NCBI GenBank assembly: GCA_006503475.1
Contig: RSEH01000083.1
Location: forward strand, 1 to 64,000
Reading direction: 5' to 3'
Source of the DNA: Stentor roeselii
Taxonomy: Eukaryota > Ciliophora > Heterotrichea > Heterotrichida > Stentoridae
DNA length: 64,000 nucleotides
The notes beneath the pieces are model-generated. The model saw only the letters and a list, made by a program, of their open reading frames with translations, made no database searches and was not told the DNA's origin. The position numbers and the translations under genes were made by a program. Position 1 is the first letter of the stretch, and the number at the start of each line of letters is the position of its first letter. This document shows positions 14,207 to 39,509 of this stretch, one piece after another.

Positions 14207-15676
14207 ATGGAAAACAAGGTTAAAGGAAAATATCTCCCACCTCATAAAAGATTAGCTCAGACTGACACACAACCTTCAAAGTTTGAAGCTTTTTTGAATA
14301 AGAAAAATACTGAACTTGCTGATACACCCTGGGGAAAAAGAGACAAACGCACTGGACTACTTGATTCGAAAGTTTTAGAAGATACGGAAATTTTGTTCAA
14401 ACAGGTTAAGGATGTATCAGAGTTTGATGAAGATTTTCCTGTTGATACTAGTGAAGACTTCCCTGAAATGAGCAATTTTGATGATTGTGAAGTCCATCCG
14501 TGTCTTTTGGCTAATATCAAAAGGTTGAAGTACTCGAAACCTACTCCTATACAGAAGTTCTCGATTCCTGTTTCTTTGCAGAGAAGGGATCTTATGGCTT
14601 GTGCTCAGACGGGCTCTGGGAAAACTGCGGCTTATTTGTTTCCTATTGTTGCGAAGATGTTGAATGACGGTCCTCCGACGTCATCCACCAACATCGACTA
14701 CAGATCAGCGAACCCAATAGGTCTAGTCTTAGCACCAACCCGTGAACTAGGAGTCCAAATCTACGAAGAAGGTTTAAAGTTCACTTACCGAACCGGTATA
14801 AAAGTAGTAGTAGTCTACGGAGGGACCGATCCGAAACTCCAATCAAAAGAACTAGAAAAAGGTGCAGACATAATCGTGGCAACTCCAGGAAGACTAATCG
14901 ATTTCACCAGTCGTGGTCGAATCGGTTTACAAAACGTGAAATACCTAGTTTTAGACGAAGCAGACCGAATGCTCGACATGGGCTTCGAGCCTCAGATCAG
15001 GTTAATCCTTGAAAAACTTCCTGAAAAGCGTGAAACTGGAATGTTTTCAGCGACTTTTCCCCAAACAATCCAGTACCTAGCAGCGGAACTAATGACTAAA
15101 TACGTTTTTCTCTCAGTTGGAAGAGTTGGAAGCACAACAGACAACATCACTCAAGAACTGTTTCAAGTTGATGAAATGGAAAAAAACGACTTGCTTATCA
15201 CGAAATTGAAAGAAATTCAAGGACTTGTCGTTGTTTTCGTTGAAACAAAAAGAAATGCAGAGTTTTTGTCAGAGTTTTTAAAACATCTCGGATTTGCTTG
15301 TACTACTATGCATGGAAATAGGACACAACAAGAGAGGGAAAGGGCTTTAAATGACTTTAAAACAGGAAGGTTTAATGTTTTAGTTGCTACTGATATTGCT
15401 GCAAGAGGATTGGATGTGATGAACATTGGATGCGTTATTAACTATGACATGCCAAGTAATATCAATGATTATGTTCATCGCATTGGAAGGACTGGACGTA
15501 TTGGAAAGAAAGGCCTGGCGATTTCGTTTATTGATGAAAAATGCAGCCATGTTGTTAAGGATTTGTATAGTTTGCTTTGTGAAACTAAGCAAAATATACC
15601 TGAGTGGTTTGAAGATTACTTCAATAATCAGGCTTTTCGCAAAAATAGGAACAAGAGAGGATTTAGACATTATTAG
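14207..15676 (+). CDS. DEAD-box RNA helicase, DDX3/Ded1 type
   Basis: 489 residues. Conserved motifs in order: Q motif (PTPIQKFSIP), motif I AQTGSGKT (about 133-140), PTREL, TPGRL, motif II DEAD (about 250-253) followed by RMLDMGFEPQ, SAT, then ATDIAARGLDV and HRIGRTGR in the second RecA domain. The N-terminal KYLPPHKR is typical of DDX3/Ded1, which unwinds mRNA leaders during translation initiation. The C-terminal tail is short and ends KRGFRHY. The start follows CTCATATA. Wobble composition changes sharply within the gene (T/G, then A/C from about 14690, then T/G from about 15190). Confidence 0.95.
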   Translation: MENKVKGKYLPPHKRLAQTDTQPSKFEAFLNKKNTELADTPWGKRDKRTGLLDSKVLEDTEILFKQVKDVSEFDEDFPVDTSEDFPEMSNFDDCEVHPCLLANIKRLKYSKPTPIQKFSIPVSLQRRDLMACAQTGSGKTAAYLFPIVAKMLNDGPPTSSTNIDYRSANPIGLVLAPTRELGVQIYEEGLKFTYRTGIKVVVVYGGTDPKLQSKELEKGADIIVATPGRLIDFTSRGRIGLQNVKYLVLDEADRMLDMGFEPQIRLILEKLPEKRETGMFSATFPQTIQYLAAELMTKYVFLSVGRVGSTTDNITQELFQVDEMEKNDLLITKLKEIQGLVVVFVETKRNAEFLSEFLKHLGFACTTMHGNRTQQERERALNDFKTGRFNVLVATDIAARGLDVMNIGCVINYDMPSNINDYVHRIGRTGRIGKKGLAISFIDEKCSHVVKDLYSLLCETKQNIPEWFEDYFNNQAFRKNRNKRGFRHY

Positions 15677-15748
15677 GTTATCAGATCTTTAAGTAGAGGG
15701 CCCCTTTTTCCATGGGATTTGGAATTGTTTTGATCATTTCTGGTATAA

Positions 15749-17611
15749 ATGGTGACTACGAGGAAATCTAATCGTAATCAACAGACTAAAAAGGATAGTT
15801 CTTCTAGTGAAGAGGAGGAAAAGAAAAATACTGTCAAGGGAAAGGGTAAGTCTCTTGATGTTCCGAAAAAACGACAGAGGTCTCCTTCTTCTGATGATGA
15901 GCCTGTCAAGTCCACCAAAAAGCCCGGAAGACCAGCGAAGTCGGTCAAACCATCAAACCCAGAAAAATCTTCAAAACCTGAAAAAGTTGAAAAGACAGCC
16001 AAGGCTGAAAAATCCAAGGCAGAAAACTCATCCAAAGAAGAAAAATCAAAACCGGACAAACAATCCAAATCCGCAAAACCACCAAGTCCAATCCAACCAT
16101 CCCCGGCACCCCCTGCACCTGCTTCAGCCCCATCTCAGCCAGCAGATCCAGAGCCAGTGAAGATGGTAAAAGCTTTAAAAAAAGGTCGAGCAGCAGTAGA
16201 TTTTGAATGTTCAAAGTCCTCCGAATGCCACGTTTTCGAAGAGGCCAGCAAGATCTGGTGCTGCACTTTGAACCAAGCAGACCTGAAAGAAAACGCAAAC
16301 AAATTTTACATAATCCAACTTTTAGCTCACGACACAAAAGCCAACTTTTTCTACGTCTGGAATCGATGGGGCCGGGTGGGTTATTCAGGTCAAAACGCTC
16401 TGAAAGGACCTTTTCTCGACGTGGAAAAAGCGAAGGCTGAGTACAACAAAAAGTTCAATGAAAAGACCAGAGGCGGGTATATTGAAGTCCACATCACTTA
16501 TGAAGACGAGCAGGAAGAAACGAAAATTGTTAAAAAAGCTGAAAGGGAAGAAGGGAAACAGGAAGAGTCAAAACTTGATAAAAGGGTTAAGGACTTGATT
16601 AATCTTATTTTTGACTTGAAGACTATTACGAATACTTTGGCTGAAATTGGATATGATGCCAAAAAAATGCCTCTTGGGAAATTATCACAAGAAACTATTA
16701 AGAGGGGTATGGAAGTACTTAAAAGAATTGATGAGGCTTTGGAACAGAACTCGAAGGGATCGCTTAGTGACTTGTCTTCACAGTTTTACTCGCTTATTCC
16801 GCATGATTTTGGATTCAAGCAGATGGCTAGCTTTATTATTAACTCCAAGGAAAGACTTAAGGAAAAAATAGGGATGTTGGAAAATTTAACTGATATGAAA
16901 ATTGCTACTACCATTTTGGAACAGTCTTCGAGTAACTTGAGTCCAGTTGATGAACATTATATTAAATTGAAATGTGGAATCAAACCTCTTGATAGGTCTG
17001 ACCCAGTCTTCCAACTCCTTGAGACTTATGTCATTAACACTCATGCATCTACTCATAACAGCTATTCATTGACTGTCCTGGATATCTTTGATGTTGACAA
17101 GGAAGGTGAAGAACAGCGATTCACCAAAGAAATCGACAATCATATGCTACTATGGCATGGTTCTCGTTTAACCAACTGGGTGGGAATTCTTTCTCAAGGT
17201 TTGAGAATCGCTCCCCCAGAAGCTCCAGTCAGTGGTTACATGTTCGGCAAGGGTGTTTACTTCGCAGACATGGTGAGCAAGTCGGCCAACTACTGTTTCA
17301 CAAGTCGAACCAACAACATCGGAATCCTACTTCTCTGCAAGGTAGCTCTCGGCAACATAAACGAAAAGTTCTACGCAGACTACAACGCAAACAACCTTCC
17401 TCCAAACAAGCACAGCACAAAAGGCTGTGGACGAACAGCCCCTTCAATAACTTCCTACATCGACCATCAAGGCACTAAAGTTCCAATCGGCAAAGGCGAG
17501 ACAGACAGTAACTTCAACGGTTCTCTTTTATACAACGAATACATTGTCTACGACGTGAAGCAAGTCCAAATGAAATATCTGTTCAAGATTCGATTCGACT
17601 ACAAGTATTAG
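15749..17611 (+). CDS. Poly(ADP-ribose) polymerase, PARP1/2 class
   Basis: 620 residues. The N-terminus (about 1-150) is a Lys/Ser/Pro-rich disordered tail without PARP1-type zinc fingers or a BRCT domain, as in PARP2. A WGR domain follows (about 155-255, with WNRWGRVGYSG), then the helical regulatory domain (about 280-410) and the ART domain. The catalytic triad is intact: His470 in WHGSR, Tyr504 in GKGVYFAD and Glu597 in YNEYIVYD, so chain elongation should be possible. Expected role: nuclear sensing of DNA breaks with NAD+ as substrate. It starts directly after GGTATAA. The helicase stop is 72 bp upstream and the next gene starts 39 bp downstream. Confidence 0.95.
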   Translation: MVTTRKSNRNQQTKKDSSSSEEEEKKNTVKGKGKSLDVPKKRQRSPSSDDEPVKSTKKPGRPAKSVKPSNPEKSSKPEKVEKTAKAEKSKAENSSKEEKSKPDKQSKSAKPPSPIQPSPAPPAPASAPSQPADPEPVKMVKALKKGRAAVDFECSKSSECHVFEEASKIWCCTLNQADLKENANKFYIIQLLAHDTKANFFYVWNRWGRVGYSGQNALKGPFLDVEKAKAEYNKKFNEKTRGGYIEVHITYEDEQEETKIVKKAEREEGKQEESKLDKRVKDLINLIFDLKTITNTLAEIGYDAKKMPLGKLSQETIKRGMEVLKRIDEALEQNSKGSLSDLSSQFYSLIPHDFGFKQMASFIINSKERLKEKIGMLENLTDMKIATTILEQSSSNLSPVDEHYIKLKCGIKPLDRSDPVFQLLETYVINTHASTHNSYSLTVLDIFDVDKEGEEQRFTKEIDNHMLLWHGSRLTNWVGILSQGLRIAPPEAPVSGYMFGKGVYFADMVSKSANYCFTSRTNNIGILLLCKVALGNINEKFYADYNANNLPPNKHSTKGCGRTAPSITSYIDHQGTKVPIGKGETDSNFNGSLLYNEYIVYDVKQVQMKYLFKIRFDYKY

Positions 17612-17650
17612 ATTTCTTAGCATTCATATTTTAAATTCGAAATAATCTTT

Positions 17651-18958
17651 ATGGAAAAAGTAAAAAAACCTGGAAATTCCGATGAAGCTAAAAGTTTGAC
17701 TAGATGTTTAGATGATGCACTGGAACTCATTTTTAATAACAAATTTTCACAGAGCTTGGAAATCTTGAAAGGCTTGGAACTAAAATTAGAAACTGGAGTT
17801 AGTAAAGGGAAAGCTGTTGATAAAGACGCGATTTTAGTCACTTTGCATTCTACAGCGCTTTGTTATCAAAGTCTTGGAAACTTTTCTGAGTGCTGCACTT
17901 ATCTAGAAGCTTGCATTTTTAATGTGAAGAGAGGTATCGATAAAGCTAACACCCAAAGTGTTTCACCGGACAAAATAAGAAAAATTAGGTACCTTGCTCT
18001 TTTAAATGCTCTTCTTTCAGATTGCTTGTTTAAACAATCAATGTTCAAATCCGCTGCAGAATCCGCGAAGACTGCCATGAAATATGCTTTATTAGCAGTT
18101 CGACTCTGTCTAAGTGCCTGTACCGAGTTGAAATTTCATAAAAACTCAAAAAATTCTCAAAAATTTCAAGAAACTTGGCAAAATTCTCAAAATGTGCTCC
18201 AAACAGTGTACAATGTCCTAAACGGTAAAAAAGTGAAAAAAGATTCAGTTTTTACCATTCGTAGTTCAATTGGAGTTCAGAAGGTGGCGGACTGGGTGTT
18301 AAATCTGACGTTTGAGAAAATCTTGGAGATCAAGGCGATTACTTTATCTGAAATGAAGTCACCGCATTCACTTACTACTGAACTGAGCAAAGACTTTTTA
18401 TTTGATAAGATCTGCTTATCGGTCACCTGCCTTTACAAGTTGTCCCAAGCTCTCAGCAGGCTCGCCGAAGAAGCCACTAAATCAAAAGTTTACCTTCAAA
18501 GAGGTTTAAAACTTTCTTCTTTCTTTTTCCCAAAAACCTGCCCAATTTTCGTCAGTCTTTCTGAACTTTTCAATCAAAAATTCCTGACATTGAAAAAAGC
18601 GAAGTCACCTCCAAGAAGCACATCTGTTAGATTTTCGCCTAAAATGCAGGAAGTTTTAGAAAAGGCGAAACATTCTGCGTTGAAATTGAAAGTTTCAAGT
18701 AAGACTCATTCTGCCAGGTCTTCTGACACAGAAACTGGAATTTCGAAAAGTTCTCAAACACAAAGTGGGTCGACTATTCATAATTTAAAGTCTTTACCGA
18801 AGTTTGAAAAGACTGAACCTGAGCCTGCTTTAAGTGAAGAAAGTGAAAAAAGAGAAGTTTTAAAGAAATTCGAGATTTCTTCAAAGGAACTTTACGGGAA
18901 CTACTCAGAAGAAGAGGTGGATAAATACGAGTACATGCCATTAAGACGAGACATTTAA
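17651..18958 (+). CDS. Hypothetical helical (TPR-like) protein
   Basis: 435 residues, no family recognised. Residues about 10-300 are predominantly helical with alternating amphipathic segments reminiscent of TPR repeats (ALCYQSLGNFSECCTYLEA, SMFKSAAESAKTAMKYA). The last third is Ser/Lys/Glu-rich and probably disordered. No signal peptide or membrane segment. The next gene starts only 14 nt after its stop. The TPR reading is weak and based on the look of helix pairs. Confidence 0.75.
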   Translation: MEKVKKPGNSDEAKSLTRCLDDALELIFNNKFSQSLEILKGLELKLETGVSKGKAVDKDAILVTLHSTALCYQSLGNFSECCTYLEACIFNVKRGIDKANTQSVSPDKIRKIRYLALLNALLSDCLFKQSMFKSAAESAKTAMKYALLAVRLCLSACTELKFHKNSKNSQKFQETWQNSQNVLQTVYNVLNGKKVKKDSVFTIRSSIGVQKVADWVLNLTFEKILEIKAITLSEMKSPHSLTTELSKDFLFDKICLSVTCLYKLSQALSRLAEEATKSKVYLQRGLKLSSFFFPKTCPIFVSLSELFNQKFLTLKKAKSPPRSTSVRFSPKMQEVLEKAKHSALKLKVSSKTHSARSSDTETGISKSSQTQSGSTIHNLKSLPKFEKTEPEPALSEESEKREVLKKFEISSKELYGNYSEEEVDKYEYMPLRRDI

Positions 18959-18972
18959 TTTGTATAATAAAA

Positions 18973-20163
18973 ATGCAGGATTCTATGAAAAAACTCGGCT
19001 TTTGCTTTGATAACAACCCGAAATGTTCTAAGTTTTTTCATTTGAAGATAGTCCAGTTAGTTCTTCATAGCATCATTGCCTTGGTATCTGGACTGCTCAG
19101 TGTTAATAAAAAAAACAACTGCTCTGTTCCTGTCTCGATTTTTTTGTTGGGAATTTTCGGAACTACGATGAGTGCCGTTGTTTTAAACTTCTTTATGTGC
19201 ACTGGAAGGTGTTGTGAGTACTTCGGCACTGATGACTGTCAAAGGCCTTTCAAACGATACATGCGTGGATTGAACTTGGTTTATTTCCCGCTTTATCTTG
19301 TTTTTTGTATTATTGAGTTTATTTGGTATGTCTTAGGAGCTTATTGGTACTCTCTTGGTGGCGACTGTGATAAAGAGTTCCCTAATGGCTACAATGCTAC
19401 TATTGGACTTGCTGCTTTTTATTTTATTCTCTTGTCGATTTATTTGGTTGGATTCTGTGTGTTTTTATGTTATATCAGAAATACTGAAGTCCCTGAACCG
19501 AAACCTCATGAAGAGCAAAAACCTCCTGAAAACCCTGCAAACCCGGATAATACTGTTGGTCAACCTGGTGAAAATAGACCTGATCAGATTAATAATCAAT
19601 ATGATCCCAGGTATGATCCTCGCAATGACCCCAGGTATGATCCTCGCAATGATCCCAGGTATGATCCTCGCAATGACCCCAGGTATGATCCTCGCAATGA
19701 CCCCAGGTATGACAATCAATTTGGCCCAGGGGCTGATCCTAGGAATGACCCGAGGTTTGACCCTAGGAATGACCCAAGTCTGGATCGGAGGAATGACCCG
19801 AGGCTTGATCCTAGGAATGACTCGAGGTTTGATCCTAGGAATGACCCGAGGCTTGATCCTAGGAATGACTCGAGGTTCGATCCGAGTAATGACCCAAGTC
19901 TGGATCGGAGGAATGACCCCAGGTATAACCCAAGGAATGACCCTGGATATGATCCGAGGAATGACCCAAGGTATGACCCAAGAAATCAACCAAGGAATGA
20001 TCCAAGATATGACCCGGGATATGATCCGAGGAATAATCCACCTCATGATCCAAGATTTGATAATATAAACGACCCGAGAAATGGCCCAGGTAATGGTCAG
20101 AGATATGATGATTATTATAATCATAGAAATCAACCACCTCAGAATTTTAGAAATCAACCATGA
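18973..20163 (+). CDS. Four-TM membrane protein with a long RYDPRNDP repeat tail
   Basis: 396 residues. Four hydrophobic segments lie at about 20-40, 50-72, 95-120 and 140-165, with Cys-rich short loops (CTGRCCEYFG). A hydrophilic tail from about 170 to the end consists largely of tandem 8-residue units RYDPRNDP and variants. The layout resembles MARVEL/tetraspan proteins, but I do not recognise the family. The tail alternates Arg and Asp and is Pro-rich, so it is probably cytosolic and could form multivalent contacts. The start lies 14 nt after the upstream stop, with GTATAATAAAA before the ATG. It ends in TGA. Confidence 0.8.
   Translation: MQDSMKKLGFCFDNNPKCSKFFHLKIVQLVLHSIIALVSGLLSVNKKNNCSVPVSIFLLGIFGTTMSAVVLNFFMCTGRCCEYFGTDDCQRPFKRYMRGLNLVYFPLYLVFCIIEFIWYVLGAYWYSLGGDCDKEFPNGYNATIGLAAFYFILLSIYLVGFCVFLCYIRNTEVPEPKPHEEQKPPENPANPDNTVGQPGENRPDQINNQYDPRYDPRNDPRYDPRNDPRYDPRNDPRYDPRNDPRYDNQFGPGADPRNDPRFDPRNDPSLDRRNDPRLDPRNDSRFDPRNDPRLDPRNDSRFDPSNDPSLDRRNDPRYNPRNDPGYDPRNDPRYDPRNQPRNDPRYDPGYDPRNNPPHDPRFDNINDPRNGPGNGQRYDDYYNHRNQPPQNFRNQP
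19597..20060 (+). repeat. 24-bp tandem repeat encoding RYDPRNDP
   Basis: About nineteen units of roughly 24 bp. The first block (19604-19710) is nearly perfect (CCC AGG TAT GAT CCT CGC AAT GAC); later units differ (SLDRRNDP, RLDPRNDS, RFDPRNDP). A higher-order pattern of alternating variants is visible at 19780-19920. Long open frames in other frames and on the reverse strand are by-products. Confidence 0.9.
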
Positions 20164-20431
20164 TGTTATTAATTTACAATATTTTCAAGTATTTTGTTAA
20201 AGATCAACAATCTCTTTGTCTTAATTAGGTTTTTGGTTATAAGATGAAAATCTTTTTTTATTTTCATTCATTTTTTCTTCGAAAGTTCCTCAGATCAAAT
20301 TAACAGAATCCATTTATTTTATCAAGGAATTCTTAAATAAATAAGACTATTTGGCTTCAAAATGGCATTTATTTCAATTAAGTGCTGTTTGAAATCTAGT
20401 AGTTTAGTAAAATTGATGAATGAATATAAAA

Positions 20432-20752
20432 ATGGGCTGCGCTTCTAGTGACCGAAAAGACCCATCTCAATACCATAGGGAAAAAATGCTAATTGAATAT
20501 CTTAATGGTTTACAGAAAAAGACTGTTAAAGAGGTTTCAAATTCTTCTGATAAAAATAGCTGGCATGGACTCATTGAACAGTATGAAGAAGGAGATCTCA
20601 TCTATGCACCTGATGGAAGTTCAGTGAAAATCATTGAAAAGATATCAAACGGGAATATTTTAGTTGAGTGCTTGAATTGTAATTTGAAGTTTCAACATTT
20701 TAAGATGAATGATCACTTAAAATCTACGGTACATATAGAAAATCTATTTTAA
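20432..20752 (+). CDS. Small MGC-type acylated protein with a possible zinc finger
   Basis: 106 residues from the second ATG. This start is chosen because it gives MGCASS, a classic N-myristoylation plus palmitoylation signal, and is directly preceded by AATATAAAA; the ATG at 20420 would add four residues and hide the Gly2. The C-terminus has a C-x2-C-x11-H-x5-H pattern (CLNCNLKFQH...DHLKSTVH), compatible with a C2H2-like zinc finger. I infer a membrane-anchored adaptor. The N-terminus resembles that of the four proteins at 44312-51554, but the rest does not. Confidence 0.7.
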   Translation: MGCASSDRKDPSQYHREKMLIEYLNGLQKKTVKEVSNSSDKNSWHGLIEQYEEGDLIYAPDGSSVKIIEKISNGNILVECLNCNLKFQHFKMNDHLKSTVHIENLF

Positions 20753-20883
20753 TTCAACAATTTTACAGTTTTATCCAATCCAATTTCATTCGATTTCAAC
20801 CAATTTAAAGATATCATATTCTTGTTGTTTTAAGCACAATAGGGCTATAAAATATATAACTCATTCTATCAACTAGCTAAAAA

Positions 20884-21450
20884 ATGGTTTTGGCCCTGCT
20901 TTACCTTCCCTTGTGCTCTGCATTTAACTTTTACAGTCCGGCAAGCAGTGACTTTTGTTTTGGAGAAGATCTTTCTTCTGAAACTCTAGGAGTCTTTGAG
21001 TTAAAAAGTGACCTTCCAGTAACCCTAGACATAATCGATCCAGACTCAGCTCATCTCTACACAAACTTCAACACTTCTCACAAGTTTTCATTTTCAGCAT
21101 TCTCCTCAGGGGTCTACCAGTTCTGCATAAAAAACAGTGCCTCTTCATTAGCAAAGCTCGGAGTTGATTTCAAGACAGGAGTCCGAGCAAAAGACTATTC
21201 AGGTATAGCAAGTTTGAAGAACTTAAAAGAAATCGAGTTGAAGATGCGAAGACTAGAAGACCAGACGAAAGACATCCACAAAAAGATCCAATTTTTAAGA
21301 GAACGAGAAGAACAGATGCGAAGCACGAACAGAACCATTCACGACCGAGTGATAACTTACAGCATTTGCACCCTGTTGATTCTTTTAGCTTTAGCATTGA
21401 TTCAGATCTTATACCTGAAAAACTTCTTCAGAGCTAAGAAAATGATTTAG
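20884..21450 (+). CDS. p24 (TMED/EMP24) family cargo receptor
   Basis: 188 residues with full p24 layout: signal peptide (about 1-14), GOLD domain with two Cys (DFCFGED and YQFCIKN), a coiled-coil region (about 115-150), one TM segment (about 157-178) and a short cytosolic tail KNFFRAKKMI. The tail carries the FF motif for COPII and a KK pair for COPI. These proteins cycle between ER and Golgi and act in vesicle cargo selection. The subfamily is not assigned. CFAP44 starts 32 nt downstream. Confidence 0.9.
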   Translation: MVLALLYLPLCSAFNFYSPASSDFCFGEDLSSETLGVFELKSDLPVTLDIIDPDSAHLYTNFNTSHKFSFSAFSSGVYQFCIKNSASSLAKLGVDFKTGVRAKDYSGIASLKNLKEIELKMRRLEDQTKDIHKKIQFLREREEQMRSTNRTIHDRVITYSICTLLILLALALIQILYLKNFFRAKKMI

Positions 21451-21482
21451 TTAACATGAAAGTAGCCTAGTAACTGCTATAA

Positions 21483-26420: not shown

Positions 26421-26525
26421 TTAGATTTTAACAATTTTAATTGAAGTTTGAATTATTGAATGGATTAACTGATTTATTGGAATGAGAGTTAACAAAAGTC
26501 TAGATGTCATTTTTAGATAATTAAA

Positions 26526-27163: not shown

Positions 27164-27907
27164 ATGCAAAATCCATCAAAACATGGACAATTTTTTCAAA
27201 TAAACGAAAACAGCCATCGTCGGACGTATTCAAACAACATAGAAAACATCAAAGGACTCAAAGCAGGCCATCGTCGAACAATGTCTAACACAGCTTTTGA
27301 CTTCGCAGGTCTCAACATCCAGTCCCCTCCCTTGGCAAGAGACGAGCCTGTTCAACTTTCAAGTTCTTCTCCTCAGAAGTCCTCAGGGAAGAAGAAAAAA
27401 GGTTTTTTAAGTTTGGTCAATGCAGCGATTTCTTATTTCAAGCAAGAAGCAAAATTTCCGATTTCTTTTCCACCTAGTGAAATCGATATGCTGAAGGAAC
27501 AGTTAGAGACTCTTAAAAATACTCAAAAAGAATTGGAAAAAAACAACTTGAAGGTCGTTGATGACTGTGAAAAGTACAGGGTGTTAATGGAAAATCACTC
27601 AAAAACAAAAAAAAACTTGGAAGGACTCATTTTTGAATTGAAGAAAAATAGCCAGATTCTTGAAAATACTTTGAAAAAAATTACTTCTGATGTTAAAAAT
27701 GAACAAAAACGCGGTGAAGAAATGGTTTTTTATATCAGTGAACAAGAAAAAGTTAGATCTAGTCCTCAGCATATGTTTGGAGAAGAAGTTGATAAAAGTA
27801 TTAAAAGGAAACAGTCTGATGTGGAAAAACCTACTCCCAAGCCTATTACTTATAAGCCTTTAACTCAGAGAGGGATGAGAAACTCTCAAAATTTATCTAA
27901 AAAGTGA
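27164..27907 (+). CDS. Hypothetical coiled-coil protein
   Basis: 247 residues, unknown. The N-terminus (about 1-90) is polar with HRRTYSNN and HRRTMSNT, two copies of a short basic motif that could be kinase sites (RRxS/T). Residues about 105-205 form a coiled coil, and the tail is basic and Pro/Lys-rich. It ends in TGA and converges with the AGC-like kinase gene, 72 bp away. Confidence 0.7.
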   Translation: MQNPSKHGQFFQINENSHRRTYSNNIENIKGLKAGHRRTMSNTAFDFAGLNIQSPPLARDEPVQLSSSSPQKSSGKKKKGFLSLVNAAISYFKQEAKFPISFPPSEIDMLKEQLETLKNTQKELEKNNLKVVDDCEKYRVLMENHSKTKKNLEGLIFELKKNSQILENTLKKITSDVKNEQKRGEEMVFYISEQEKVRSSPQHMFGEEVDKSIKRKQSDVEKPTPKPITYKPLTQRGMRNSQNLSKK

Positions 27908-27979
27908 ATGTTAATTAATGAGTAGTTATAGTCTGTTTATGATGCTTGTTGACTAACTAGAATCAAGTAACTAAATTAA

Positions 27980-29302: not shown

Positions 29303-29449
29303 ATATGTGTCTGACTTTATATGGCAAAAGACGTTATGATTAAAAAAATTCACCTCATCAACTAAACCATTTATTTTCTCATCCCACTTCTCTTGAATGA
29401 AAACTCTAACCCAATCTTAAAATCCTTCCAATACTCAAACAATATAAAA

Positions 29450-30976: not shown

Positions 30977-31035
30977 CCTGTAGAAATTATATAAATTGTT
31001 AACCAATAGACAATCTATGATTTAATATCAAAACA

Positions 31036-33525
31036 ATGGACTCCAAAAGTATTCAAATCATTCGATTCAAGTCTTCAGGCGACTTCGAATTCACCGTTGA
31101 AGGAATTCAGCTTTTTCAAAGTATTCCAGGTCCTTTGGGCATAATCTCAGTTGTCGGTCCTCCTTCTTCAGGAAAGACAACATTTTGCAAAAAGTTGATG
31201 GGTAGTTTAAACGGTGTTCATTCAAGTACTTCAGGCATCTGGGCCTGGCGAGAGACTTTAAAGGTAATTAAAAGAGATGAAGACGGCTCTGAGTATAAAC
31301 TCGACTTGCTCGTCATTGACTGTGAGTCGATCACTGCAAGAGCTGACAAGAACAAAACAAGAGGACTGGAGATACTCGCTTTGGCCTGCTTGATTTCTTC
31401 GCATATTGTTTATTTCACTGATCAAGCGATTCATACTCAGCAATTCACAGATCTTGATATTTTCGCTGAACTTCCTAATTTGATCTCGGTCAGGAAACAT
31501 GTTGATAGCTTTAAAAGTTTACATGAATTTCTACCGGTACTTACTTGGGTCATCTTCGGACCTGATTTAAAAGCGCCTGAAGAAACTGCAGGGTAAAGGA
31601 TACTCAGGAGTTATTTCGAAAAAATGCTTTCTAGTCAAGGAGCTGCGGAATCTGCGAGGATTAAGTCAAGTATTAAATCGTTTTTTAGGAAACGGTTTTG
31701 TTTTAATGCGGTGACAGGGAACAAAGGACAGTACCACAGAATGATTGAATTTATTCAACAAGCAACTACAACTAAAACGACTTTCAACATTTCCTTGACA
31801 GGTCCTATTCTCTGTTCAATGCTTCAGTCATACGTTTCAAAGCTATCGAAAAAGACCCCAGCAGTGATCCAAAGTGCATTCAACCGAGCAGTCGCAACAG
31901 AAGCCAGAAAAAACATTGAAAGACTCTACGTCAGGTACTTGGAACAAATGACAGAACTTGAATCGAAACTTCCTTGCAGCGAAGAAGAACTTTGGATGAC
32001 TCACTCTTCTCAAGTCCTCGAATTAACCTCCAGGTTCGACAGGTCCATGGCTGAATTCACGGAATGTCCTGAAATCTTGCAAGAAAAAAAAACTGTTGTT
32101 CATAGAATGGCTAGTTTTTATGAAGAACTCAAAGAAGCTAATTATAAACAAAGTGAAGAAAAGTCTCGAAAAGCTTTTCTTTGCTTTTTTGAACCGATTA
32201 GGAAAAATGATGAGTTTTTAGAGAATGTTGTGGAAAAAAAACTAGAAATTATTGAAGGCTTTCAGGAATTTTTAAGTCAAACTGCAGGACCTGCTGCTTT
32301 AAAGGTTTTTATTGAAGAGTCTTCACAAGTTGTTAGTTTTTTGTTTGGAGTTATTGAGAATCTTCTGAAATTTAATGAAAACTGCAGAGAAGATCTGGAA
32401 AATCAGGTTGAAGAACTGAAGAAAAACAGGGAAAAAAACAGGATTAATGAGCAGAAAATGCAGAAAATGTTTGAAAATTCTGTAAAAGAACTTGAATCTC
32501 GCCTAGCTGATAAAGAAGTAGCTTTTAATGACATGCAAACAACTTATAACCAGAAACTAACTTTAACAGAAGCAAAAGTAAAAAACTTGACACGTGAAAT
32601 AAAAGCCAAAGACCAAGAAATCGAACATCTACACCTTGAAAAAGAAGCAGTTCTAGAAATGGAAAGAAACCTTTTCGCTAGAAAAGAAGAAGAACTCGAA
32701 GAAATCATCGAAAAACTCAAAGAAAAAATTAACACCCTAGAAAATGAAGGAGAAAAAAAACAGCTTCGACTTGAACAGTCGATTTCAGAAAAAGATGAAG
32801 AAATTCAAGAACTTCGACAAAAGGAAAAATTTTCAGAAAGTGCAACAGAAAGCATTCAAGACTATTCAATGCTTTCAGGACTTCGAAGAGATATCTCTGA
32901 AATGTTTATTCTTCTTGAAACTGAGCAAAATAACAACTCAAGGTTCGTTGCTTTGATGGACAGAATAGCAGCTCTTCAAGCTGAACTTAATAAATGCAGG
33001 TTAAAAGAAATTGAAAATAGAAATCGATTGATTGAAGAGTATGATGAAAAAATTTACGCTTTGAAGGATGAACTTGAAAAAGTTTCTCAGGAATTAAATG
33101 AAAGTAAAACAGGAATGATTAGGAAAAGTGAAGATGTTGCACCGAAGATTGATGATGTTGTTAAAAGTTTAGAAGGAGAAGTAAAACTTAAGGTTGAACA
33201 GAATAACTTGTTGGCTGAAATGATTCGCAAAAGGGATGAACAGATTGAAAGCTTGTATCAGGTTATTGAAACTCATAAGAAACAGTTTGAAGGACTTGAG
33301 CTGGATTTTGATGATAAAGAAACTCAGATGAAGAAGATGAAAAGTGAGTTGATACAGATTCGAGATGATAATGATGTACTTATTGGATTGATGGGGTACT
33401 CTTTAGAAGTGCTTCAAAAGAAACGAAACATTCAAGCAATCAGCTTAGCTCAAATAGGAAGTGTCTCAAACCGAGCTCGGGTGATAAAAATATTCAAAAA
33501 ATTCGGAATCCCATTTGAACAGTAA
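31036..33525 (+). CDS. GBP/atlastin-like large GTPase with long coiled coil (one 15-nt intron)
   Basis: 824 residues after removing 31593-31607. The N-terminal domain (about 1-200) has the P-loop GPPSSGKTTF, a switch-like GVHSSTSGIWAW segment as in guanylate-binding proteins and VIDCES in place of the DxxG motif. The usual GBP (T/L)RD guanine-specificity motif is not evident (VIFGPDL at that place). Residues about 200-420 are helical like the GBP middle domain, and about 420-790 are a long coiled coil. GBPs and relatives hydrolyse GTP and remodel or coat membranes. There is no TM segment or CaaX box. The altered G3/G4 motifs make altered nucleotide handling possible. Confidence 0.85.
31593..31607 (+). 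other. 15-nt intron in the GBP-like gene
   Basis: Sequence gtaaaggatactcag. It interrupts a Gly codon (gg|g). Retention gives TAA; removal joins the GTPase part in frame to the helical part (GG GSYFEKMLS reading). Confidence 0.93.
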
Positions 33526-33644
33526 TGTAATCTAATAATTTAATCCAACACTCCCAACCCACAATTCAACCCATTCCCAAGTCTCTTCCTCAAATCCCTA
33601 ATTCTCATAACTTTTCCATAATAAAACCCTCTACTTCCATATAA

Positions 33645-34328
33645 ATGAGTTATTCAATAGCGCACACAATCCCAGAAGAAGACCACGAAAACTACATCAC
33701 AGAAGAAGAAGCCATAAACATGATAAAAGGTTTCAACTTCCACCTAAAAAACCTTTCAATCCAAAGTGACGAGTTAAAAAAGCAAAACTCAAATTTACTT
33801 TTCAAACTTTCAAAAGAAAAAGAAAGAAACGAGTCCTTTCGAGCTTCAATAGTCGATTCTCGCAAGACTTTGCAAGAACTTGAAGAACAAACTCAGTCAA
33901 GTTGCGCCTTTCTCAGTCAATTAGAGCAAAAAATCGCGAATGAAGAGTCAAAAGTTCTTTCTTCTGGATTGATTGACTTGGAAAGTTATGAGTCTGAAGA
34001 TATGAGTGAGAAGGGAATGAATTATTTGGAAGAACTTTTAAATTATTATGAAAAACTTGAGACTTATTCTATTATTTTAACTACTCAAGATGACCTTTTG
34101 AGGAAAAAAATTAATGATAAAAGAAATCAGCTTTACTCGGAGTTGAAGTGTGTTAATTGTAGGGAAAGGTATGTACCTGCGAGGAATAGTGATAAGGCTT
34201 GTGCTTATCATCCTGGAAAATTAAGGTATTTCTCTTGTCGAGGATGTGGAGCTGATGCTTATTATGATTGTTGTATTCGGTGTAAGGACTGCAGTAAAGG
34301 ATGCAAAGTCTCACATCATACCAGTTAA
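33645..34328 (+). CDS. Hypothetical coiled-coil protein with C-terminal Cys/His-rich domain
   Basis: 227 residues. Coiled coil at about 25-165, then a compact C-terminal domain: C-x2-C (CVNC), CAYHPG, CRGC, CC, CKDC and a final HH. The C-x2-C...YHPG...C-x2-C arrangement looks zinc-binding and recalls CHORD-like fingers, but I cannot name a family. The start follows CATATAA. It converges on U1-70K with 50 bp between ends. Confidence 0.75.
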   Translation: MSYSIAHTIPEEDHENYITEEEAINMIKGFNFHLKNLSIQSDELKKQNSNLLFKLSKEKERNESFRASIVDSRKTLQELEEQTQSSCAFLSQLEQKIANEESKVLSSGLIDLESYESEDMSEKGMNYLEELLNYYEKLETYSIILTTQDDLLRKKINDKRNQLYSELKCVNCRERYVPARNSDKACAYHPGKLRYFSCRGCGADAYYDCCIRCKDCSKGCKVSHHTS

Positions 34329-34378
34329 CTTTAACCCTAAAAACTAATACCTCAGAGTGTTGAATGAAGCTAAAATAA

Positions 34379-35206
34379 TTACCTATTCTTAGATCCTTCA
34401 TTTCTGCGGTTTTCATATTTACGATCATTTCTTTTATCATTAAAAGGTTTTCTTTCACTTTTCTTGGATCTAGACCTAGAGCGTGAAGTGACAGGTTTGT
34501 ATCCTCTGTTAATATCATATATAGTTTCAATATCTTCTTTAGCAACATACTCCCCTTTTTGTCTAGTCGCTCGGGAGTTACCTTTGCCCCCTCCAAGTCT
34601 TCTTGGTTTCCATCCCTTCGTAGTTCTTCCCTGTTCATAGTCAACCATGATCCTTCTTCCATCAATTCTTTTCCCATCAGCATGTTTATAAGCATTTTTA
34701 TACCCTTCCTCATTTTCATACTCAATAAACCCATACCCTCTAGACTTCCCCTGCAAGTCCCTAGCAATTTTAATACTTTTAATAGGACCATAAAGCTCAA
34801 ATTCCTTCTTCAACCTAGCATCAGTAGTCTCATAGCTAATCCTACAAACAAAAATAGTTCTAAAAGGATTCGTATTCAATTCCAGCTCTTTCGGATTATA
34901 ATCCTTCAAATCTTCCTCCATTTTCATCAAATTTTCCTCAATTCTTTTCTTCTTTTCCTTTTCTTTCTTTTCCCTCTTACTTTCAACAGGTTGTCTTTCA
35001 GGTGCTTCACCTTCTTCAAACATATCAACATATTCAGCAAGTCCTGTATAAGCTCTGCACTTCGGTTTAACAGGAGCTTTCAAATACTGCAAAGGCGGGC
35101 GAGGGTTGAACAAAGACTGTAAATGTGGAGGCAGTTCAGGTTTAGGCACGTAAGTCGTAGTCGCAGGGCGAAAGGGTGCCATGCTGGGTCCTCCAGGGAT
35201 GAACAT
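34379..35206 (-). CDS. SNRNP70: U1 small nuclear ribonucleoprotein 70 kDa
   Basis: 275 residues. The N-terminal U1-70K signature (PPHLQSLFNPRPPL and a Tyr/Glu-rich YVDMFEEGE) precedes a basic helix and an RRM with RNP2 (IFVCRI) and RNP1 (SRGYGFIEY). A short RS-like tail (RSRSRSKK) follows. The protein binds stem-loop I of U1 snRNA and helps define 5' splice sites, so it serves the machinery that must recognise the 15-nt introns seen here. It is shorter than the human protein because the tail is reduced. Its start codon lies 16 bp from that of the divergent ferlin gene. Confidence 0.95.
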   Translation of the reverse strand: MFIPGGPSMAPFRPATTTYVPKPELPPHLQSLFNPRPPLQYLKAPVKPKCRAYTGLAEYVDMFEEGEAPERQPVESKREKKEKEKKKRIEENLMKMEEDLKDYNPKELELNTNPFRTIFVCRISYETTDARLKKEFELYGPIKSIKIARDLQGKSRGYGFIEYENEEGYKNAYKHADGKRIDGRRIMVDYEQGRTTKGWKPRRLGGGKGNSRATRQKGEYVAKEDIETIYDINRGYKPVTSRSRSRSKKSERKPFNDKRNDRKYENRRNEGSKNR

Positions 35207-35222
35207 TTATATCCTCATATAA
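35207..35222. promoter_or_regulatory. 16-bp head-to-head spacer between U1-70K and ferlin start codons
   Basis: The whole spacer is ttatatcctcatataa: perfect 6-bp inverted arms (TTATAT / ATATAA) around CCTC. Each strand therefore presents ATATAA directly before an ATG. If both starts are right, both promoters must overlap this element or lie inside the opposite gene. Confidence 0.75.
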
Positions 35223-38200
35223 ATGGCTGAGCTTTCTGGAGATAAGCTGAAAAAGGGAGGGTACTCGGTCCATGTCTACCTCCAGGCAGGACGAGGACTG
35301 TTGTCGGCTGGTGACAAGAACAACGTCGACCCGGTTGTACTGTTTAAGGTCTTCGGAAAGTCGAAATGCACGAAAGCCCAGAAGAAAATCACGACAGGGA
35401 CTCTTGTGAACTGGGACGATCATTATTACTTTGAGAAAGACATCTCGTCTCCTGTGGAACTTGAAAAGGAAAGACTTGTTATTGAGGTCAGGGATGAGAA
35501 GTTCTTGTTGAAGGACTCGTTGATCGGGGTGTATGAATTGGACTTGACTTTTATTTACTACCAGGAAAATCATTGTATTTTAAATAAGTGGGTCGTTTTG
35601 AGTAATCCGGAAAGTGAAGACTTTTCTACTGTTAGAGGGTATTTGAGGATCAGTGCTAGTGTTCTTCATGAAGGGGATAAACATGTGGATCTTACAGTTC
35701 CTTTTAAGGTTAATGAAAAGGAAGATTTGATGATTCCTCCTCAGATTAAATTGCAGACTAAACAACTTAGGATTCAGTTCTTTAAGGCGGAAGCTCTGCC
35801 GATTATGGATACTGGAGGAACTGTCGATGCTTATTGTGTTGCTAGGTTTGGAGGTGTTGAGGGAAAGACTAGCTGGAAAACTGCTGATAAGGCAACTATG
35901 AGTGTTGATTGGAGTGAAGAAATATTACTGCCTGTTGTTATTCCTTCTGTTGGAAATAAACTTAGTATTACTGTGTTTGATTATGATAGACTTTCAAAGG
36001 AAGATGATATGGTCGGAAGCTTTAGCTTTGATTGGAATAAAGTTGCGAAGGGAGAATTTAATAAATTCTTCTGGGTTAACATCTATGGAGGGCCTGAAAA
36101 CTTGAACAATGAGCAAAGCAAATTAATGAACTCAGTCACAGAGTTGGCATCTAACTGGCGAGGAAGAGCTCTGATGAAGATCTTCTTAGAAGACAACCCA
36201 AGAGCAATTCTAAAAACCCAAAAAATAACCCATCAAGAAGACCTCCGAAAATCCCGAGAAGACTACTCAAAAGGTAAAAAGTGGGAAATCAGGGCAAAAA
36301 TATTCAACGCGGTCGCTTTACCCACTGCAGAAAAAGTTTCAATCCTAATAAAATGGGGAGACCTTCTTCTCGAAACCAGTAAAACAACAGGATCAAACGG
36401 CTGCGCAGATTTTTTCGAAGTTCTCGAAAGACAAATCACTGAAATCCCAGAGCCAAACGAACAAAACATCCTTCCAGACGTATTCATTTATCTTCGACGC
36501 GACAAGAAAAACATCTGCTTCGCTCGTTTCCCAGCAAGAGATTTTTTCAACATCGATGCAAAAGACCGTTGGGAGAAGTTCACTCCAGACCGTGCAATAA
36601 ACGAGGTGAAAAACGACTGGGAAGGTGGTTATATAAAGTTCCAGATTTTCATCGGGCTTTACAAAAATACTCCTGTTGAAGAATTCTGGAAGATAAAACC
36701 AGAAAAAAATGAAGGGGAAAGAAGAAAGTTGGTTTGTAATATTTTTCAATGTCGAAGTCTTCCACCTTCTGATGCTTCTGGACTTGCTGACCCTTATGTT
36801 GTTATTTATCATGAAGGACGTACGGTTTCGACTGATAAGAAGGCAAAGGAACAGACTTTGAACCCGATTTGGTATGAAAATTATGTCATGGATATTGACT
36901 TCGTAGGAGTGGAAAAGTCTTCACCTATCATTGTTTATGTCATGGATTATGATATTGTGGGAAGTGATGATATGATGGGCATGACTGTCATTAGACTTGA
37001 TGATAAAAGCTTGGTTAGGATCGATGGAAATCATATTGAAGCACAAAGACCTAGGTGGCTTTATCTTAATATGGGAAGACCTGGAACTGAAGAAGGGGAA
37101 ATTCTTATCAGCTTCAATTTGATTTATGATGGAAGTTTTCCTGAATATGACCTTAGACCGATTACTAGGGATTTTACATTTGAGATTAATGTTCTTGGAT
37201 TGAGGGATTTGAAACCTAGTCTTGGATGGATGCCGGTGAACAAAGCCTACTGCAAGTTCGACTTAAAAAGTCTAGAAATGCCAGGAGAGTCCCAAATGAT
37301 AACAGAGTTAAAAACTCAGCCATTCGAGCCAGGTCCCAACCCAAACATAAACACAGTTCTTTCATTCACAACCAAGATCCCAGTAGACCATTTATTCGCT
37401 CCAGCTCTGACAGTACTTTATATTTAGTGTAACGTTCATGATTACCTGATGATGGGTTTATCCCAACCTCTTCTCGGAACTTTTTACATAAAACTCGGAG
37501 ACATCATCAGAAGTTCCAAAGGACTTGACAGGCCTGAGTCCGAATTGATGAGCATCCAGTACTCAAGGGCCAATCCTTTAATGGACCCGAATGAAAAAAA
37601 TGTTGATGACACTGCAGATGATGGGTTATTTGAAAGAAGAAGTTCTGGAGTTCCTGTTTATTATCGAAAAAGCATGATCGACCCTTTGACTGTCCCTATG
37701 CCGGTTGAAAAGACTGAAAAAGTTTTATCTGGACCTTTGGTTAAAATTATCAGGCTTGAACCCCAGTTCGAGGATGACTCGAGGTTGAGGAGAAAAGTGG
37801 AAATTAATAAACCTGATGATAAATTTTATGTATCGGTTGGGTTCAATAGATTACCTGAAGATGGACTTAAACATTATCGGCATTTTGTTGAGGAGGAACT
37901 TGAAAAAACTGAGTATATTGGCAAGAGTCCTTTTAATATTTATCAGATTCAAAGGGGTCAATCACGAGGACTAGACGACGGTTTCATCAGTTCAGCCGAC
38001 AAAATCGACGAAGGTGGTCAAAAAACAAATTCCCGAGTAGTAGGTATCTTCAAAGGAATGATCCGAGTAGCAGACGAAAACGAAGAAGATCTAAAAAAAT
38101 CCCTTCCCAAGATAATGGGTGAGAACGGTGAAGAAGAAAACGACAAAGAAATCGAAGAAAAAAAGTTCTTCAAAAACATCACAAAACAACTTCTCCTTCG

Positions 38201-39359
38201 AACGGAATGCGTAGTGCGTGTTTACATCTTAAACTGCATAGACCTCGCCCAGCGAGACATCGACTCTCCCTCCGACCCTTACATAATTCTAAAACTCGGC
38301 AAAAAGAAGATAAAAGACCGAGAAAACTACAAACTCGACGACGCAAACCCAGACTTCTACAAAAGCTACGACATCACAACAGTCCTTCCAGGAGACTCAA
38401 TCTTAAAGCTCGAGCTTTGGGACTACGACGAAATCCTTCCAGACTCAAAAATCGGTTCCACTAAAATCGATTTGGAAGACAGATACTTTTCTTATTCTTG
38501 GAATAAACTCGAGCATAAACCAGTTGAAACTCGCAAACTTTTCATAAAATCTTCAAGAGTCCCTCAAGGGTCAGTCAGGATGTGGGTCGAGATCCACCCG
38601 TCGAAAAATCGACCTGATCCGATTGACATAACACCCAAACCTCCTGTTGAGTTTGAAGCGAGACTCATTGTTTGGAAATCGGAAAAAGTCCCGACTAATG
38701 CCATTGAAGGAGTTAGTGACCTTTATTTAAGGGCTTGGATTAATAATCTCACTCCTAAGGAAACTGATACTCATTATCGATGTCAGAGAGGAAGTGCTTC
38801 TTGGAATTGGAGGATTAAGTTTCCGGTTTTACTTGATGGAAAAAGTAATTTTGAACTTATGATGCAACTTTGGGATCGCGACTTCTTCTCGTCTAATGCT
38901 TTTATTGGCGATGCTTCACTTAATTTCACGGATATTGCTAGGGAAGCTTGGGAGTTTGGAACTCGGGTTCAGAAAACGGGAAATATGGACCTTGCTGAAA
39001 GACTTACTAGAAAGGAAACGCCGAAAATTTGGCTGGAATTTAAAAGCTTTGATAAGAATGGAAAGGAAAGTAAAGCTGGAAAGGTTCAGGTTAGCTTTGA
39101 GTTGGTACCTGGGGAAAGGGCTAAAGCTTGTCCTGTTGGAGAAGGTAGGAGTGAACCGAATATTGACCCGCCCTTACCCAAACCAGATGGAAGAATGGAA
39201 TGGTCAATGAATCCAATGAAAATGATGTCCCAAATGTGCGGTCCAGACGTTAGAACTCGTTTTTGCATGTGGATATCTTTGGCACTCTGCATAGTCCTTC
39301 TAATAATGATGTTCCCAATGATAGTCTCAAACGCGATAACAACAGCTATATTTTCATAA
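35223..39359 (+). CDS. Ferlin (multi-C2 tail-anchored membrane protein, one 15-nt intron)
   Basis: 1373 residues after removing 37413-37427. At least five C2 domains are visible. The clearest carry Ca-binding-type aspartates (SDASGLADPYVV with VMDYDIVGSDD near 515-585, and DIDSPSDPYIILKLG with LWDYDEILPDS near 1015-1075). The splice junction restores VHDYLMMGLSQPLLG, typical of ferlin C2 domains. The C-terminus has one TM helix (FCMWISLALCIVLLIMMF) and a very short lumenal end. Ferlins act as Ca-dependent membrane-fusion and wound-repair factors, which is notable for a large cell known for healing, although that link is inference. Wobble composition alternates in blocks of about 500 bp along the gene. 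Confidence 0.95.
37413..37427 (+). other. 15-nt intron in the ferlin gene
   Basis: Sequence gtactttatatttag, lying exactly between codons. Its last three bases are an in-frame TAG. Removal joins ACA to TGT AAC GTT and continues the C2 domain. Confidence 0.95.
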
Positions 39360-39509
39360 TCTAGTTAAGTAGTAGTGGTAATTTATTCTCCACATTTTTA
39401 GACCTGTTTTATTAATTTATTCAACCAAGTGAAAAACCGAGAAAAAACATGTGAAAACCAGAAAACAATGAAAAAATCCATCAAAAACGCGGAAAATCCA
39501 CAAAAGGCT

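Follow-up and report, generated by a model that had tools for sequence, protein, structure and literature searches.

Keto/amino alternation within and beyond the window

In the sampled somatic DNA, which includes the window (the whole 64,000-nucleotide stretch analysed here), base composition swaps between the strands at intervals of about half a kilobase. The swaps occur even within genes and look as though the DNA had been recurrently cut at fixed points and left single-stranded over evolutionary time. A preliminary description had reported that wobble positions switch between keto (T/G-ending) and amino (A/C-ending) blocks along single genes. Third-position keto averages 0.488 over all analysed genes; within the boundaries first proposed for the ferlin gene, the eight successive blocks give 118/165, 57/190, 109/165, 22/65, 75/115, 31/164, 108/160 and 16/54 (0.72, 0.30, 0.66, 0.34, 0.65, 0.19, 0.68 and 0.30), which bears out the switching. 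Block fractions likewise agree with the proposed switches in the DDX3 (0.64/0.28/0.61), DYRK (0.43/0.66/0.30) and PARP (0.41/0.59/0.38) genes. They also follow in CFAP44 (0.36/0.66/0.47/0.23/0.67) and in the GBP-like gene (0.48/0.58/0.26/0.60/0.29), except where long blocks contain additional switches.

Switches were called with a two-state HMM initialised on the keto/amino contrast. Most coordinates proposed earlier fall within tens of bases of the HMM switches, but a few amino-to-keto edges are off by 100-160 bp. The abrupt points, which have no strand, and the ferlin features are as follows, with contrast scores and HMM switches in parentheses.

14671, abrupt keto/amino point in the DDX3-like helicase gene with DEAD and Helicase_C domains (score 54; switch 14668)
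15907, abrupt keto/amino point in the PARP gene with PARP, PARP_reg and WGR domains (score 34; switch 15904)
22736, abrupt keto/amino point in the WD40/CFAP gene (score 59, the highest listed in the window; switch 22733)
25440, abrupt keto/amino point in the WD40/CFAP gene (score 48; switch 25415)
30697, abrupt keto/amino point in the DYRK-like kinase gene with a Pkinase domain (score 41; switch 30694)
33411, abrupt keto/amino point in the GBP-like gene (score 34; switch 33402)
36098, abrupt keto/amino point in ferlin (score 39; switch 36077)
36078-36695, plus strand, amino (A/C-ending) block in ferlin by HMM (keto third positions 57/190 in 36090-36680)
36696-37235, plus strand, keto (T/G-ending) block in ferlin by HMM (keto third positions 109/165 in 36690-37210)
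37238, abrupt keto/amino point in ferlin (score 54; switch 37235)
37410-37424, plus strand, putative 15-nt intron inside an amino block of ferlin (sequence, scan and gene model)
37958, abrupt keto/amino point in ferlin (score 47; switch 37952)
39167, abrupt keto/amino point in ferlin (score 37; switch 39170)
45111, abrupt keto/amino point inside the minus-strand gene 44312-45769, beyond the range first described (score 42)
50361, abrupt keto/amino point, also beyond that range (score 51)

The other HMM switches lie at 15166 (DDX3), 16495 and 17095 (PARP), 21914 and 25841 (CFAP44), 29803 (DYRK), 32061, 32526 and 32742 (GBP-like), and 36695, 37571 and about 38500 (ferlin). A Pfam search of the GBP-like open reading frame (ORF; 31597-33522) at 1e-5 gave no match.

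The preliminary description had also proposed comparing the autocorrelation of the signal with that of shuffled codons. For 30 ORFs of the window (15,593 codons), third-position keto/amino autocorrelation starts at +0.076 for lags of 16-30 codons (z 32), falls to -0.039 at 181-210 (z -24) and recovers to +0.023 at 361-420 (z 12.5). These values lie far outside those of 200 within-gene synonymous shuffles and give a rough period of about 1.1 kb. In the same autocorrelation of these ORFs, purine/pyrimidine and strong/weak third-position signals are without comparable oscillation. The median length of complete internal blocks is 513 bp for keto blocks (n 57) and 531 bp for amino blocks (n 46). 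The alternation at third positions is real and extends beyond the window within the sampled parts of the somatic DNA.

The interval 14207-39360 is not special: the same alternation is found in the remainder of its contig (C508) and in pieces of C37, C339 and C59, where the second positive autocorrelation peak is absent. Among the papers listed in literature searches, none is described as showing such a pattern, which may nonetheless have been published.

Abrupt and gradual edges

Whichever strand is followed 5' to 3', composition changes abruptly from keto to amino but gradually, along ramps, from amino to keto, a sawtooth with reverse-complement symmetry. The edges had been described as fairly sharp, which holds for the first type and fails for the second; the difference between the two, missed at that stage, is the main clue to mechanism. 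Derivative skewness at 40 codons is -0.38 +/- 0.06, its sign identical in plus-strand (-0.45) and minus-strand (-0.27) genes. When edges were called on half of the codons and the profile was drawn from the other half, the keto-to-amino flip occurred within about 7 codons and the amino-to-keto ramp ran from about -40 to +60 codons. The best edge sd is 8 codons (about 24 bp) for 158 keto-to-amino edges and 16 codons for 279 amino-to-keto edges, and the position error of the edges has a median posterior sd of 4.9 codons.

Keto-to-amino points scoring at least 30 number 102, against 8.8 in shuffles. Point spacing varies with the score threshold: its median is 762 bp at 14, where 345 edges against 311 in shuffles are hardly above chance and edge-based intergenic fractions and spacings were left unused, and 1045 bp at 20, from which score upwards chance may account for roughly 4 in 10 edges. 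In a three-state HMM, only just over half of the exits from keto lead directly to amino (0.0044, versus 0.0034 for the intermediate state). When a ladder HMM with free emissions was fitted across contigs, the reverse direction came out slightly ahead (-144,799 versus -144,905), with states that resisted interpretation.

A probable mutation signature at the DNA level

Keto blocks and complemented amino blocks have a common trinucleotide context table (r 0.948 and 0.914); with amino blocks read on the coding strand the correlation is 0.216 and -0.008. Codon positions 1 and 2 shift too, with G up and C down, and with Ser, Pro and Thr down and Val, Gly and Ala up. Non-coding flanks correlate with the adjoining gene edges in four classes (r 0.36-0.52, n 44-51 per class). 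Because codon positions 1 and 2 and the non-coding flanks follow the blocks, and because the context table is common to opposite strands, the alternation does not reflect codon selection. Strand-asymmetric mutation with closely spaced switch points, which the preliminary description had put forward, is well supported by these same observations.

The asymmetry is strongest before G for every preceding base (3.29 for A, 2.86 for C, 1.29 for G and 2.15 for T), values that describe equilibrium composition and not observed mutations. It is reversed in the G[C/T]T context (-1.0), which is unexplained. Continuity is near zero between opposite-strand neighbours separated by less than 80 bp (r 0.09 in 30-codon and -0.01 in 50-codon windows, n 34); for tandem pairs r is 0.36 and 0.30 in the same windows (n 48), and within genes at 30-60 bp it is 0.40-0.49. 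The near-zero values, from small samples, do not help a strand-only model.

Decay of the bias around the points

A tract of finite length, about 300-500 bp (Gaussian width best at 400-500 bp), fits better than either a constant bias reaching to a mid-segment origin or a scaled shape. It does so in 200/200 bootstraps for each of four settings (148, 41, 105 and 41 segments, with 150 bp beside the points left out), although undetected points within long segments would favour the same outcome, and the chance share of edges from score 20 upwards is a further caveat. In segments shorter than 1.7 kb the midpoint zero crossing is forced by construction, and a flat middle could appear only in the 24 segments of 1.7-3 kb. 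By this comparison the bias has a fixed reach around each point, whatever the spacing between points. Since the finite tract fits better than a constant bias to a mid-segment origin, replication polarity is disfavoured, and repair polarity fits best among the causes listed in the preliminary description.

The keto/amino sign at the abrupt points matches mutation on the 3'-ended strand. The blocks could be an imprint left in the course of evolution by strand-asymmetric mutation around fixed points that lie about 1 kb from one another. DNA of the inherited (germline) copy would break recurrently at each point, and 5'-to-3' resection would leave the 3'-ended strand single-stranded on both sides of the break. 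Through this exposure, or through error-prone gap filling, that strand would gain C-to-T and A-to-G changes, turning the top strand keto-rich to the left of the point and amino-rich to the right. The step would be sharp at the break and the bias would decay over some hundreds of bases into ramps between points. Since somatic breaks are not inherited, a germline source would have to exist. Double-strand breaks with 3' tails, and their occurrence in the germline nucleus, are inferred. Recurrent breaks of this kind at fixed points, taken to be junctions of internal eliminated sequences (IESs) or, with lower likelihood, ordinary meiotic hotspots, are the reading tentatively preferred here, one that falls a little short of probable. 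In its favour, a TP6A_N match of Spo11/Top6A type and 12 Piwi matches are encoded. Against it count the near-zero continuity across opposite-strand neighbours, the three-state and ladder HMM results, the reversed asymmetry in the G[C/T]T context, the lack of a GC peak at the points and a motif search that gave only weak short k-mers.

The polarity of the sawtooth is the one expected if recurrent breaks exposed 3' single-stranded tails to C-to-T and A-to-G change, as reported for human meiotic breaks (PMC7615360, in excerpt). At those human breaks the forward strand carries C>N and A>N changes, and C>T is elevated at CpG. Both systems share the sign, the targeting of C and A on the 3'-ended strand, the excess of C>T at CpG, and a bias reaching hundreds of bases or more from the point. 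In the excerpted human account, however, new mutations extend over about 2 kb at separate hotspots, whereas here base composition itself is shifted about every kilobase; the human central +/-100 bp lacks asymmetry, whereas the central blur here is narrower (sd about 24 bp).

Identity of the points

Excerpted accounts of the heterotrich ciliate Blepharisma stoltei (PMC9942856, PMC9942806) give about 40,000 IESs in a macronuclear genome of 41 Mb, near one per kb, with 70% intragenic where genes cover 77%. The points described here match that density and the mostly genic location, and their similar spacing suggests that they may mark germline IES sites; strand bias goes unmentioned in those excerpts. 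It is possible, though on the doubtful side, that the macronuclear sequence is a fossil map of the germline, with every abrupt point an IES junction at which germline chromosomes undergo repeated cutting and resection. If so, macronuclear sequence by itself would suffice to predict IES positions, and much synonymous variation in this species would depend on how far a site lies from the nearest cut.

When 144 points were searched for shared k-mers, short and weak ones appeared but no more extended motif, and the edge error hides a 2-bp motif such as TA. The best 7-mer, TGGAGGA, occurs at 7 points against 0.8 expected, out of thousands tested; TGAC/GTCA occurs at 51 against 30.6 expected, an excess that edge placement between keto and amino letters may favour. 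PiggyBac transposase is the IES excisase in other ciliates; a search for its domain gave no match, and as the control was silent too, this is no sign of absence. One ferlin block searched against the somatic assembly matches only itself.

Spo11-type meiotic hotspots in open chromatin would involve the same chemistry at other sites. A Spo11/Top6A-type domain is encoded (the TP6A_N match), and among edges scoring at least 26 the intergenic ones are 26/145 keto-to-amino and 2/95 amino-to-keto, a signal that UTR composition may mimic. The other 119 of these 145 points lie within genes, the edges are narrow, and GC does not rise at the points (0.36, versus 0.38 at 400 bp), all of which makes ordinary hotspots unlikely.

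Other sources of asymmetry

Convergent non-coding transcription ending at the points, for example germline transcription feeding scnRNAs, would expose a non-template strand that is keto-rich on both sides. It has the right sign, and the points are related to the ends of genes: of 160 genes, 72% are amino-biased over their first 60 codons and 64% keto-biased over their last 60. Several flips within single genes mean that ordinary gene transcription cannot cause the bias, and sharp termination with diffuse initiation would be required each kilobase; this explanation is quite unlikely.

Slightly less credible still are very short replicons, in which forks would converge at the abrupt points, with dispersed initiation between them and a keto-rich lagging template. 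They predict the right sign, keto/amino at termination, and a strand-symmetric pattern, but need units of about 1 kb whose termini are sharp and whose origins are diffuse, contrary to how replicons usually behave, and the constant bias that they imply loses to the finite tract, to which missed points could contribute. Bacterial and mitochondrial replication asymmetry resembles the present case in its third-position keto/amino skew and in ramps where exposure time varies; it differs in extending over far longer distances with one or few switch points.

A scrambled germline, in which neighbouring somatic segments are alternately inverted and inherit opposite replication bias, would account for the alternation and for a context spectrum common to opposite strands. 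Such segments should have equally sharp edges; derivative skewness, the split profile and edge sd all show amino-to-keto edges to be ramps, and the idea is very improbable.

Codon-level selection for two codon dialects (tRNA sets, co-translational pausing or protein domains) can hardly be the explanation. In its favour, blocks are about as long as domains, Lys and Glu codons barely change and Gly moves in the opposite direction. The odd codons fit DNA context on the keto-like strand, however, and the shifts, which selection would confine to synonymous sites and align with the coding strand, extend to codon positions 1 and 2 and the flanks and have a context table common to opposite strands. 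Of six older paralog pairs (41-63% identity), five share blocks no more than shifted controls, at low power. Three give r 0.09, 0.08 and -0.70, within their nulls (shift-null sd 0.64, 0.30 and 0.52); the ferlin pairs give 0.37 at 63% identity (null sd 0.17), 0.18 at 44% and 0.08 at 41%. The close tandem paralogs 3817-6924 and 8194-11262 share blocks (r 0.83), uninformatively, as 83% of their same-amino-acid codons are identical.

Genomic context and significance

Under the preferred reading of recurrent germline breaks, strand flips about every kilobase would shape codon and amino-acid usage in a nuclear genome, and finished sequence would reveal recurrent germline breakage and permit testing of how IESs affect the inherited copy. 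It would also caution against taking such codon variation for selection.

The genome looks like a heterotrich ciliate macronucleus. CCCTAACA telomere repeats give 547 matches against 0 in the reversed control; among the matches listed are the starts of C26, C40, C48 and C56 and the last 75 bases of the 248,360-bp C59. Frame-keeping GT..AG 15-mers such as 37410-37424 are present as putative introns, the scan and gene finder having admitted 15-16 nt only. The excerpts on Blepharisma stoltei (PMC9942856, PMC9942806) report 15-16 bp introns and the same CCCTAACA telomere repeat. Blepharisma reads UGA as Trp, whereas ORFs here also end in TGA.

Third-position keto/amino content alternates within genes

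Keto (T/G-ending) and amino (A/C-ending) codons alternate in blocks along the forward strand within single genes. The blocks that a preliminary description had reported in the ferlin gene are real, with third-position keto contents of 0.19 to 0.34 against 0.65 to 0.72. They also differ from shuffled synonymous codons, the outcome that would have refuted the description not being seen: compared with 200 synonymous shuffles within 30 ORFs of the window (15,593 codons), keto/amino autocorrelation lies far outside the shuffled range. It is positive to about 90 codons, negative over lags of 91 to 300 (z as low as -24) and again positive at 361 to 420 (z = 12.5), a rough period of 1.1 kb. The purine/pyrimidine and strong/weak signals of the same ORFs, with the same shuffles, lack this oscillation. 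In a sample from other contigs of the assembly (C37, five pieces of C339 and one of C59; 66 ORFs, 32,938 codons, 60 shuffles), the alternation has the same strength at short lags (z = 41 at 16 to 30 codons) and at middle ones (z = -26 at 181 to 210), and the later positive return is not seen in these 66 ORFs. The sequence sampled amounts to about 294 kb out of 44.39 Mb, so that calling the pattern genome-wide is an extrapolation. Median lengths of complete blocks are 513 and 531 bp; thus, the keto-to-amino edges are about 1 kb apart.

Keto-to-amino edges are abrupt and amino-to-keto edges are gradual

The preliminary description had called the edges fairly sharp. Split-half profiles, in which edges were taken from one half of the codons and the profile from the other (174 genes, each 100 codons or longer), bear this out for keto-to-amino edges, hereafter points, whereas amino-to-keto edges are gradual ramps (167 and 263 edges, respectively, with the halves pooled so that one edge may count twice). 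At points, two-fold pyrimidine codons go from +0.15 to -0.16 within 7 codons either side, while the ramp extends from about -40 to +60 codons; the fitted edge standard deviations are 8 codons (158 keto-to-amino edges) and 16 codons (279 amino-to-keto edges). By eye, codon families in the 174 genes are apparently out of phase, NCN and GGN being slightly ahead of two-fold pyrimidine codons and AGR behind.

Skewness of the keto-track derivative is negative (-0.38 +/- 0.06 at 40 codons), in genes of the forward (-0.45) as well as the reverse strand (-0.27). On 35 held-out genes, hidden Markov models (HMMs) with one to four states reach log-likelihoods of -10,840, -10,242, about -10,140 and about -10,100. 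With three states, every route from amino to keto leads through the intermediate state, and slightly more than half of the exits from keto go straight to amino (0.0044 versus 0.0034). Contrary to this sawtooth, a free ladder HMM fits better in the reverse direction, by 106 log units. An abrupt keto-to-amino and a gradual amino-to-keto edge are invariant under reverse complement, and therefore fit a strand-symmetric DNA process.

One process acts on alternate strands

A two-state HMM of 108 ORFs splits the blocks with a log-likelihood of -46,709, versus -48,862 with one state. Relative to amino blocks (21,362 codons), keto blocks (22,564 codons) have less C and more G at positions 1 and 2, fewer Ser, Pro and Thr, and more Val, Gly and Ala; Leu moves to TTR and Arg to AGR. 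Non-coding flanks of 60 bp track the adjoining gene edge (r = 0.52, 0.36, 0.47 and 0.36; n = 48, 44, 51 and 47). Codon selection is suggested by Lys and Glu codons, which are nearly unresponsive, and by Gly codons, which respond in the opposite direction, but it is countered by the context tables shared on the keto-like strand. When third positions and their neighbours are read on that strand (16 contexts), the correlation between keto blocks and complemented amino blocks is r = 0.948 (pyrimidines) and 0.914 (purines), with blocks called from the other codon half, though with HMM parameters trained on mostly the same genes; amino blocks read on the coding strand give 0.216 and -0.008. Keto and amino blocks reflect a single process, which acts on opposite strands in the two. 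Among six older paralog pairs (41 to 63% identity), a comparison of low power, block sharing exceeds shifted controls only for the ferlin pair with 63% identity (r = 0.37, null standard deviation 0.17).

Location and reach of the points

Edges were scored by 150-bp contrast against 10 shuffles. At scores of at least 26 there are 145 keto-to-amino and 95 amino-to-keto edges, versus 23.6 and 16.9 in shuffles, and at scores of at least 30 there are 102 and 42, versus 8.8 and 5.4; a threshold of 14 was dropped because its edge count was near chance (345 versus 311). At the 26 threshold, 26 of the 145 keto-to-amino edges are intergenic versus 2 of the 95 amino-to-keto edges, the non-coding share of the sequence being 22.4%. 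Amino bias marks the 5' end in 72% of 160 genes, and keto bias the 3' end in 64%. Points seem to occur in intergenic regions and ramps only rarely, although UTR composition may contribute. Two results count against the reading of the points proposed below: GC shows no rise there, and continuity is near zero between opposite-strand neighbours separated by under 80 bp (r = 0.09 or -0.01 in 30- or 50-codon windows, n = 34), compared with r = 0.36 or 0.30 in tandem pairs (n = 48) and 0.40 to 0.49 within genes.

Bias is about 0.19 beside points scoring at least 22, and for the first 450 bp it falls alike whether the segment measures 0.9-1.2, 1.2-1.7 or 1.7-3 kb; in the 24 longest segments it is near zero at 600 to 1100 bp from the point. 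With the 150 bp beside points excluded, a finite tract (Gaussian width 400 to 500 bp, or exponential 300 bp) fitted best in 200 of 200 bootstraps under all four settings, its mean lead being 82 to 212 log units over constant bias to a mid-segment origin and 49 to 128 over a segment-scaled shape, in a test blurred by chance edges and by missed points, the latter favouring the finite tract.

Possible origin of the points

Keto gain corresponds to C-to-T and A-to-G change on one strand. A break followed by 5'-to-3' resection would leave the top strand single-stranded at the left and the bottom strand at the right, and so could produce a sharp keto|amino step with fading flanks; the sign of this geometry matches that observed. 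Human meiotic breaks are reported to have the same geometry, with forward-strand C>N and A>N and with C>T raised at CpG (PMC7615360). Similarly, the asymmetry here peaks before G (3.29, 2.86, 1.29 and 2.15 after A, C, G and T, respectively); contrary to the general sign, it is reversed in G[C/T]T (-1.0).

Somatic breaks are not heritable, so cutting or fork collapse in the germline nucleus would be required. A search of the somatic sequence at 144 points gave no longer motif, although position error would hide one of 2 bp. Fixed, narrow points of this kind would be natural if their determinant were DNA removed from the soma, and we infer that points may be sites of such internal eliminated sequences (IESs). 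For Blepharisma, whose genome is 41 Mb, about 40,000 IESs are reported, 70% of them intragenic (PMC9942856, PMC9942806), hence about one per kb, a spacing like that of the points. The genome encodes a Spo11/Top6A-type domain and 12 Piwi matches; a PiggyBac domain search gave no match, its control being equally silent. Literature searches on strand asymmetry in ciliates, on codon blocks within genes and on skew at breaks or IESs listed no description of the pattern, which may nevertheless have been published already.

Genome and genes of the window

The genome (44.39 Mb, 522 contigs) was examined on its own; the window is C508:1-64000. It contains 547 matches to CCCTAACA repeats (reversed control, 0), among those listed several contig starts and the final 75 bases of C59; the same repeat is reported from the Blepharisma macronucleus (PMC9942806). 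TAA, TAG and TGA all serve as ORF ends, and in intron scans with length preset to 15-16 nt some ORFs stay in frame through a 15-nt GT..AG stretch, a putative intron (for example, 37410-37424). These features suggest that this is the macronuclear genome of a heterotrich ciliate using the standard code. The first 10 kb of contig C339 is a contig end, repeat-like at its start, with just 282 codons called; window positions 1-300 are a minisatellite of CTCCACCTGGTTTAAATTTAT-like units of about 21 bp.

Pfam matches include DEAD-box helicase, PARP, kinase and ferlin, as well as a WD40 protein with a weak Cfap43 coiled-coil match; the GBP-like gene, a large ORF at 31597-33522, has no Pfam match at 1e-5. 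The ferlin family has six paralog places (E below 1e-100, open frames of 1308-1449 codons) besides weaker matches, on C508 (the contig of the window), C178, C371, C502, C495 and C472 (two places). The tandem duplicates at 3817-6924 and 8194-11262 share keto/amino blocks over 984 aligned codons (68% amino-acid identity), with 83% identical codons at shared amino acids.
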